From Candidatus Omnitrophota bacterium (GTDB lineage: Bacteria > Omnitrophota > Gorgyraeia > Duberdicusellales > 4484-171), in contig JAHISK010000075.1 of assembly GCA_018818105.1 (NCBI GenBank), forward strand, positions 1 to 34,114: 34,114 bases of DNA, in the 5' to 3' direction. The position numbers and the translations under genes are program-made. Positions 25,666 to 30,513 of the stretch are shown one piece after another. Position 1 is the stretch's first letter. Every line of letters begins with the position of its first letter. The notes below the pieces were generated by a model, which was not told the DNA's origin, made no database searches, and saw only the letters and a list, made by a program, of their open reading frames with translations.

Positions 25666-26373
25666 ATGAAACGAGTTGTTCCGGCGTTATTGACGGATAA
25701 TAAAGATGCTTTTATTGATATGTTGGATAAATGCGCGAAGTTTACGGATTATGTTCAAATTGATATTATGGATGGCGAATTTGTTCCATCAAGAAGTATT
25801 ACTATTGCAGATTTGGATGGCCTAAAATCTCCTGTAGGCAGCGAAGCTCATCTTATGGTAAATAATCCTCTGGCGTGGGTGGATGTTTTTAAAAATTTGG
25901 GGGCTAAGAAAATCATTTTTCATTTTGAGAGTAATAACGGTGTAGGAAAGTATGGACTTCCCTACACCACTGAAAATCTAAATAATTATCCCCAAAGGGA
26001 ATTTTCTTGTAACCATATAGCTATTATTGATGAGATTAAGTCTGGCGGGTTAGAAGTAGGGATTGCTATAAATCCTTCTACTCGATTAGATGAATTTAAG
26101 TTTCTTGTTGACGCGGTGGATTCTGTGCTGTTTATGGCGGTAAATCCGGGGTTTTATGGAGCTCCATTCATTCCTGAGGTATTAGATAATATTAAATCGT
26201 TTAAGGGGATGTTTCCTCAGAAGATGATAGGAATTGATGGGGGAGTAAAACTTTCTAATGTTAAAGATATTTTGGCAAGTGGACTTGATTATATATGTGT
26301 CGGCAGCGCTATTTTAAAAGACGCGGATCCTGCTTTAGCTTATCAGAAATTTATAAAAATAGTAAATGAATAA
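25666..26373 (+). CDS. Ribulose-phosphate 3-epimerase family protein with insertion
   Basis: A 235-residue TIM-barrel of the Rpe family. YVQIDIMDGEFVPS corresponds to the usual H.DvMDGhFVPN, so the first metal His is Gln31 here while Asp33 is kept; His62 (AHLM) and Asp191 (IGIDGGV) are the other two ligands, and VNPGFYGAPFIP is the phosphate/product loop. About 28 residues (90-117, NNGVGKYGLPY onwards) interrupt the barrel between FHFES and IAIIDEIKSGGLEVGIA. They coincide with a DNA palindrome and look like an in-frame insertion. With Gln in place of His, metal binding and activity may be altered; it may be a paralogue acting on another sugar phosphate. It overlaps the next gene by 8 bases. 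Confidence 0.8.
   Translation: MKRVVPALLTDNKDAFIDMLDKCAKFTDYVQIDIMDGEFVPSRSITIADLDGLKSPVGSEAHLMVNNPLAWVDVFKNLGAKKIIFHFESNNGVGKYGLPYTTENLNNYPQREFSCNHIAIIDEIKSGGLEVGIAINPSTRLDEFKFLVDAVDSVLFMAVNPGFYGAPFIPEVLDNIKSFKGMFPQKMIGIDGGVKLSNVKDILASGLDYICVGSAILKDADPALAYQKFIKIVNE
25939..25968. repeat. GTAGG palindrome within the rpe-like coding sequence
   Basis: GGTGTAGG (25939-25946) pairs exactly with CCTACACC (25961-25968), and AAG/CTT extends the stem after one mismatch. It lies in the insertion that separates two conserved segments of the epimerase. Confidence 0.75.
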
Positions 26374-28662: not shown

Positions 28663-28782
28663 GTAGGGGCGTCGCTTGTCTACGCCCGTAATAATATAAA
28701 ATTATCAATAATTGAATGATTGTGACATTATACAAATTATAATCGTGATTAATAATCGGGCGCAGGCAAGCGACGCCCCTAC
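28663..28782. repeat. 120-bp palindromic element, 26-bp arms
   Basis: Arms 28663-28688 and 28757-28782 are inverted repeats agreeing at 24 of 26 positions, beginning GTAGGGGCG and ending CGCCCCTAC. The 68-base centre is AT-rich. The arms are far richer in G+C than their surroundings. It ends 6 bases before the lgt start. Confidence 0.88.
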
Positions 28783-28788
28783 GAAATC

Positions 28789-29562
28789 ATGCATCCAATA
28801 CTTTTTAAATTAGGGTCGATAACTATTTATACCTATGGAGTATTTGTTTTCCTTGGGTTGATTCTTGGTTTTTTTTTCGCCCAAAGAGAGGCTTGCCGTT
28901 TAAGAATAGATGTTAACAAATTTACCGATATTATTTTTTGGACAGCATTAACGGCATTCGCTGGAGCAAGGCTTCTGTATGTTATTATTGAGTATAGATG
29001 GTTTTTAGAACGGCCGTTAGAAATAGTTTTTAGCAGAAGCGGATTTGTTTTTCTTGGCGGGATTATTTTTGGGCTTATTCCATTGTATTTGTTAACGAAA
29101 AAGCATAAAATTAGTTTTTTGAAAATGGCTGATTGTATTGCGATAGGTTTGCCGTTGGGGCATTCTTTGGGGCGGTTAGGTTGTTTCTTTTATGGATGTT
29201 GTTATGGCAGGTCTACAAGTTCATTCATAGGTGTGTTATTTCCTTCTAATTCTGCCGCGGGTATGCTTGGTGAAAAAGTAATTCCAACTCAGTTGATTTC
29301 GTCTTTTTTCCTGTTTTTGATTTTTTTAACGTTATTTTTTCTTCGCAAGTATAAACGGTTTTCCGGCCAACTTTTTGTCTGGTATTTATGGCTGTATGGT
29401 TTTTTTCGATTCATAATTGAGCTTTTTAGAGGTGATGACCGGGGCACTTTTTGGGGGTTTTCACCGGCACAAATTATATCTGTGATATTAATTCTTATCG
29501 GCACGTATATATTTCTAAAAAAACGCCGTTCTAGCCTTAATTCCGCGCGTTGTATTCTGTGA
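28789..29562 (+). CDS. lgt: Prolipoprotein diacylglyceryl transferase
   Basis: A 257-residue membrane enzyme with about seven transmembrane segments that transfers diacylglyceryl from phosphatidylglycerol to the lipobox Cys. MHPILFKLGSITIYTYGVFV is the usual start; GHSLGRLGCFFYGCCYG contains the Lgt signature with its essential Arg, and FWGFSPAQIISVILI closes the chain. It would process the four lipoproteins encoded at 2.7-5.1 kb. Immediately upstream lies a large palindromic element, so the ribosome-binding region is not standard (CTACGAAATC before the ATG). The stop is 10 bases from a 54-bp direct repeat. Confidence 0.94.
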   Translation: MHPILFKLGSITIYTYGVFVFLGLILGFFFAQREACRLRIDVNKFTDIIFWTALTAFAGARLLYVIIEYRWFLERPLEIVFSRSGFVFLGGIIFGLIPLYLLTKKHKISFLKMADCIAIGLPLGHSLGRLGCFFYGCCYGRSTSSFIGVLFPSNSAAGMLGEKVIPTQLISSFFLFLIFLTLFFLRKYKRFSGQLFVWYLWLYGFFRFIIELFRGDDRGTFWGFSPAQIISVILILIGTYIFLKKRRSSLNSARCIL

Positions 29563-29571
29563 GTTTTCTAA

Positions 29572-29625
29572 GAATTATTCGTAACGAAAATTGCGTAATA
29601 ATTATCGCTATTTTCAGGTGATTCC
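29572..29625 (+). repeat. 54-bp direct repeat, left copy
   Basis: Matches 30425-30478 in the same orientation at 52 of 54 positions. It contains an imperfect palindrome centred on ACGAAAATTGCGT. The two copies bracket the VapBC genes. Confidence 0.93.
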
Positions 29626-29655
29626 GTTCTAATTCGCAATAATTTAGAATGTTTC

Positions 29656-30297: not shown

Positions 30298-30424
30298 AAA
30301 CTCTAAAGCATCCAGGGGATTTTGTCCGCGGCAAACCCGCTGATTTTCGCGTTGAAGCTATAGAAAAAGTCCACGAAGACCTAATTATTTGTCTGTCTTA
30401 AATTATCGCAAGTGCCTATTTAAT

Positions 30425-30478
30425 GAATTATTCGTAACGAAAATTTCGTAATAATTATTGCTATTTTCAGGTGATTCC
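30425..30478 (+). repeat. 54-bp direct repeat, right copy
   Basis: Second copy of the 29572-29625 repeat, with two base differences. In this copy the central ACGAAA-A-TTTCGT palindrome is perfect. Confidence 0.93.
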
Positions 30479-30513
30479 AGCCAAATTTACTCCCAAATTT
30501 TCTTTCAAAATTC

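Follow-up and report, generated by a model that had tools for sequence, protein, structure and literature searches.

The 24 extra residues of the Rpe-family epimerase encoded in our window (the whole 34,114-nucleotide stretch of a Candidatus Omnitrophota bacterium contig analysed here) are very likely one copy, inserted in frame, of a dispersed DNA element that is non-autonomous and built of two hairpins. Taken together, our sequence, covariation and structure-prediction analyses are best read as describing mobile palindromes of a new, non-autonomous family, able to become protein segments. The host gene and the parts of the insertion are:

25666-26373, + strand: Rpe-family epimerase gene, host of the insertion (Pfam PF00834; top Foldseek rows Rpe and allulose-6-P epimerase)
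25931-25937, + strand: left flank GTAATAA, the T-tract target position in most copies, not T-rich here
25938-26009, + strand: inserted palindromic element, 72 nt, 24 codons (from the relatives' length, the repeat copies, the boundary profile and a covariance model match of 80.5 bits)
25939-25946, + strand: hairpin 1, 5' arm GGTGTAGG
25961-25968, + strand: hairpin 1, 3' arm CCTACACC
25972-25977, + strand: hairpin 2, outer 5' arm GAAAAT
25990-25999, + strand: hairpin 2, inner stem-loop CCCC-AAA-GGG
26001-26006, + strand: hairpin 2, outer 3' arm ATTTTC, with the conserved end TTG directly behind it at 26007-26009

The epimerase reading frame (25666-26373, + strand) runs uninterrupted for 235 aa and matches Pfam Ribul_P_3_epim with E=5.9e-39. 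Among the relatives' Rpe loci, 26 of 29 could be parsed by a motif script (the other 3 were left out), and in these the gap from FHFE to H is 4 (24 loci) or 5 residues (2 loci) against 28 in the window Rpe, and the IIFHFE...NPST span is 33 (24 loci) or 34 residues (2 loci) against 57, so that 24 residues are extra in the window protein. This segment of 24 aa, or 72 nt, is best placed at 25938-26009, in the stretch that links strand 4 to helix 4. None of the 26 readable relatives has it, and in the window protein it is translated in the Rpe frame as GVGKYGLPYTTENLNNYPQREFSC plus one edge residue; matches of the window Rpe to proteins of the same family split in two (residues ~1-90 and 112-235). 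These results agree with the first-pass annotation, which had described an interruption of about 28 residues at 25933-26017, open in the direction used, and had proposed alignment with the Rpe of relatives as a check. Since the genome has one Rpe-type gene, the insert-bearing protein is probably, as judged from the gene content, the working copy. The window Rpe misses the NCBIfam rpe equivalog cut-off (129.2 vs 212.6), and its exact reaction is therefore uncertain. Rpe-like proteins of the clade (the window Rpe and its readable relatives) carry a Gln in VQIDIMDG, at what we take to be the position of the metal-binding His of canonical Rpe. An AlphaFold2 model of Rpe with the insert, made from a two-sequence alignment, keeps the barrel (pTM 0.73), and a Foldseek search with the Rpe model places Rpe structures on top, with Rpe 4nu7 as the best match (TM 0.76). 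Residues 88-115, between strand 82-86 and helix 110-126, fall below pLDDT 50, as would also be expected from so shallow an alignment, and the inserted segment is predicted to be probably a flexible loop.

Hairpin 1 of the insertion does contain the 8-bp perfect stem previously claimed for it (GGTGTAGG/CCTACACC), beyond which come an A.C mismatch and 4 further pairs, and the 98-nt insertion strand folds more stably than its shuffles (z -2.79, with 1 of 200 shuffles equally good). A 4-bp TAAC flanks the element on both sides. The accompanying claim that it starts at GTAGG like the intergenic palindromes did not hold, as the palindrome at 28663-28782 shares just five letters with it and the family consensus is GGTATAGG; kinship between the two was rejected, their sequences being unrelated. 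That palindrome is 120 bp long, with GTAGGGGCGTCGC arms that are 92% complementary, and is of the GTAG kind. Another repeat in the window, a 76-nt direct repeat pair (29559-29634 and 30412-30487, 84% identical), flanks a pair of small ORFs (68 and 131 aa) that by eye looks like a putative VapB/VapC-type toxin-antitoxin.

A 93-base insertion query found 9 other significant places in the own genome (E 5.5e-17 to 8.6e-5), and a covariance model recovered nine strong copies there plus a truncated tenth on contig 134. Once oriented, the copies have in common a hairpin on the left and, on the right, an asymmetric part, GAAAAT...CCCC-AAA-GGGG-ATTTTC-TTG. Other than the one in rpe, all lie at gene edges or between genes, including the rplC-rplD junction, sites just before fusA and before a response regulator, and one beside the end of a sigma factor, with neighbour names read from translations by eye and not by domain scan. 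A common-looking REP, GTCATTCCCGCGAAAGCGGGAATCC...GGATCCCCGCTTTCGCGGGGATGAC, is also present at two loci of this genome (L058 and L061). The second check proposed in the first-pass annotation, a search for the inserted peptide in further proteins, also came out in favour of its reading: the DNA recurs in the genome, and related genomes carry it in frame within other proteins. Within the own genome rpe holds the sole in-protein copy found, and the other in-frame copies belong to five other genomes.

A covariance model built from 23 copies identified 136 copies in 46 of the 292 genomes of the class, with up to 15 per genome, and in a sample of the phylum 55 of 384 genomes matched, of which 53 belong to the same class and 2 do not. 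The spread is patchy (the host's family has four matching genomes in the 292-genome search, the own one included), and a single non-coding copy is present in 24 of 45 genomes. Paired columns covary beyond shuffled and slid versions, which supports both hairpins; in alignment A3 12 pairs changed on both sides and the covariation score was reached by 0 of 500 shuffles, and in A4, which was fitted to the model, the figures were 13 pairs and 0 of 500. The consensus structure was set by hand on A2 and again on the broader A3, and RNAalifold on A2 returned no structure, probably through a MAFFT misalignment of the first hairpin. A loose half-element search of seven genomes added matches that were weak or antisense, a pattern scan of viral contigs gave 0 elements, and Rfam gave 0 matches in the window and two miRNA matches only, far below gathering score, at four other element loci. 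Literature found under the lineage name Omnitrophota describes no such repeats, which says little. At L123 (G208) and L124 (G238), which belong to different genera, the element has identical flanks and the neighbouring ORFs are equal over ~3 kb; this identity may reflect binning contamination or recent transfer.

The ends of the element are sharp. In the 136-copy profile, information is near zero before the first model base, rises at a T-tract TTTTTTA followed by [T/C]GG, and drops right after ATTTTCTTG, giving an element that runs, behind a T-rich tract, from [T/C]GG to ATTTTCTTG. Ends defined in this way delimit 25938-26009 in rpe, exactly the 72 nt required by the protein comparison. A XerC/D site allows filled and element-free orthologs to be compared, at a linker of variable length: in the filled site (G129) AATTTTTTA precedes the element, and three element-free orthologs have (N/R)-F-L across AATTTCTT(A/G) with the same F-L codons, the DNA being seen for two. 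In an element-free ortholog (L278, G084) this linker holds a different stretch, which is lineage-specific and has a CCGCCTAAGGCGG palindrome, and the linker seems to be a frequent acceptor of repeats. A hairpin of dG <= -6 lies immediately outside the left end in 18 of 131 copies, against 2 of 131 for the right end (five of the 136 were left out, their flank being too short), a left bias that is expected if the T-runs of terminators serve as targets. The flanks and this one ortholog comparison suggest that the T-tract is a pre-existing target and not part of the element, and that it is often a terminator's T-run. The rpe copy deviates in that its left flank, GTAATAA, has no T-tract, either an argument against a strict target rule or a sign of later change.

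Open frames of at least 40 codons on each side cross 14 of the 136 element loci, and we judged 10 copies, spread over 6 genomes, to be real internal in-frame insertions. These lie in rpe (own genome, G000); a XerC/D-like recombinase, a glycosyltransferase 9 and a TPR membrane protein (G129); an AsmA-like protein, FtsQ and ApbE (G303); an AsmA-like protein (G231); and, on the reverse strand, a HEAT protein (G295) and a serine recombinase named by eye (L239, G070). Besides rpe, the XerC/D-like recombinase, the glycosyltransferase and one AsmA-like protein have Pfam domains on both sides of the element, and five other hosts on one side only, in a scan that left out L239 as well as L146 and L214. 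The glycosyltransferase has ~34 extra residues at the element site relative to solved structures; host homologs without the element were compared for 2 of the 10, rpe and XerC/D. All ten in-frame cores are multiples of three, from 69 to 96 nt (that of L241, which has an extra base in its left end, was set by hand), and 8 of the 10 are read in the forward frame with TTE after hairpin 1. Of the non-coding copies 68 of 121 are also 3n (mean per genome 0.58, with 5 partial copies left out), which may reflect ancestry, the copies being related. Dropped as insertions were the + frame of L223 and the frames of L146 and L214, which look antisense or spurious, L174, where the element stands beside the start and the 5' side is unsupported, and L231, where it supplies start and leader. 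In this last case (G129) the element apparently gives a type IV prepilin its start codon and leader MLSHTIKN, directly before GFSLLEV. The XerC/D and TPR proteins of G129 (L223 and L222) also contain, in frame, a repeat of another palindromic family, GGCA(A/G)TGGTTTGGC...GCCAAAGCCA; it encodes a peptide RQWFG...SQSHK, for which the XerC/D query gave many peptide matches in G129. In the AsmA-like protein of G303 (L208) a variant of the GTCATTCCCGCGAAAGCGGGAATCC...GGATCCCCGCTTTCGCGGGGATGAC REP is in frame as VIPAQAGIQ...DARFYGHD.

An open frame and a protein that scores well with Pfam are what would also be seen if the segment were an old, family-specific Rpe loop whose coding sequence is palindromic by chance. 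We consider this reading refuted, and its probability minimal, given that readable relatives uniformly (26 of 26) lack the segment and that the same DNA occurs, dispersed, 9 more times in the genome, always in a gene-edge or intergenic position. The conserved two-hairpin fold with its covariation, the copies that directly precede the fusA start codon and that of a response regulator, and the single copies in many genomes, which are also expected of a conserved RNA, could instead point to a cis- or trans-acting RNA (riboswitch, attenuator or sRNA) with the rpe copy as a stray duplicate. However, the inspected loci have no common neighbour gene, copies occur in both orientations and reach 15 per genome, ten proteins contain one, and no Rfam family scores above threshold, which together make such an RNA highly unlikely.

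A classical MITE, with terminal inverted repeats, a target duplication and mobilisation by a DDE transposase, would likewise be short, non-coding and dispersed, and could account for TAAC on either side in rpe. We nevertheless regard it as unlikely: the element has no terminal inverted repeats, the flanks beyond its ends are nearly without information, TAAC/TAAC is absent at the other copies of the own genome, and with core lengths of 3n in all ten in-frame copies a target duplication could only measure 0 or 3n bases.

Returning to a non-autonomous mobile palindrome, we searched the ~1.5 kb flanks of 67 Y1-transposase loci (PF01797) in 16 genomes and obtained 0 element matches better than E 0.5, the best being at chance level (E 0.79). 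Given this lack of an element-flanked Y1 gene, and of a fitting left guide, we infer that mobilisation takes place in trans. The enzyme supplied in trans would probably be single-strand-specific, recognising the hairpins and joining the element 3' to a T-rich target, and within this proposal many copies would follow terminators for that reason. The rpe copy would be tolerated, and have survived, because it entered the β4-α4 loop, where it would form a flexible excursion and leave the barrel intact. At present we can only speculate, and with considerable doubt, on a broader scheme: a mobile element of the whole phylum, using T-tracts as targets, in many cases those behind terminators, and having a body shaped for protein read-through. 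It would have repeatedly added segments of 23-32 residues to housekeeping proteins (Rpe, XerC/D, FtsQ, AsmA, ApbE, heptosyltransferase), and would stay 3n even outside genes. If true, passage through coding sequence would be a regular part of the element's life and not an accident. Protein-coding palindromes are best known from Rickettsia, where the question is still asked whether such repeats are neutral parasites or provide proteins with new segments. A second family from another lineage, alike in behaviour, spread over dozens of genomes, sharply bounded, and offering an inferred target together with at least one orthologous site in filled and empty form, would allow comparative tests of the rate of gene entry, of which loops accept an element, and of how long segments persist.

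Among known systems, IS200/IS605 ends are described as carrying a subterminal hairpin close to each end and, flanking the left end, a short target sequence (PMC6006769). Our element similarly has a hairpin near each end and no visible inverted terminal repeats, and its putative T-rich left target (T-tract missing in the rpe copy) may be a further point of resemblance to single-strand transposition of the IS200/IS605 type. However, its left hairpin starts at most 1 nt from the element start in the 136-copy profile, which leaves no room for a left guide tetranucleotide, and in contrast to IS200/IS605 it has no left guide and no autonomous partner was found; ACTG could be its right guide. The GTAG/CGTC REPs, hypothesised to be miniature transposons, are characterised as short hairpin repeats, mostly intergenic with some inside ORFs, and intragenic REPs are known in several genomes (PMC3733652). 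The element is likewise a short hairpin repeat, chiefly intergenic and sometimes within ORFs, but differs in its two unequal hairpins and large bulge, in showing no GTAG or CGTC tag at either end of the 136-copy profile (TTTTTTA-[T/C]GG and ATTTTCTTG), and in having no Y1 transposase partner in 67 loci; unlike RAYT-associated REPs, its copies flank 0 of these 67. Another close system is the RPE of Rickettsia, palindromic repeats of ~150 bp that are reported in frame in unrelated genes, where they add a short peptide, as well as intergenically (PMC10969869), and of which RPE-4 and RPE-6 are assigned to the CGTC superfamily (PMC3733652). The likeness to these elements that the first-pass annotation had drawn holds as behaviour, with dispersed palindromes in multiple copies, both intergenic and in frame in unrelated genes (10 of 136 copies, all 3n). 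Compared by description only, the two differ in lineage, in core length (52-110 nt here) and in the ends [T/C]GG...CTTG, and by analogy we would file the element apart from both RPE and REP, as a new family with a known kind of behaviour.
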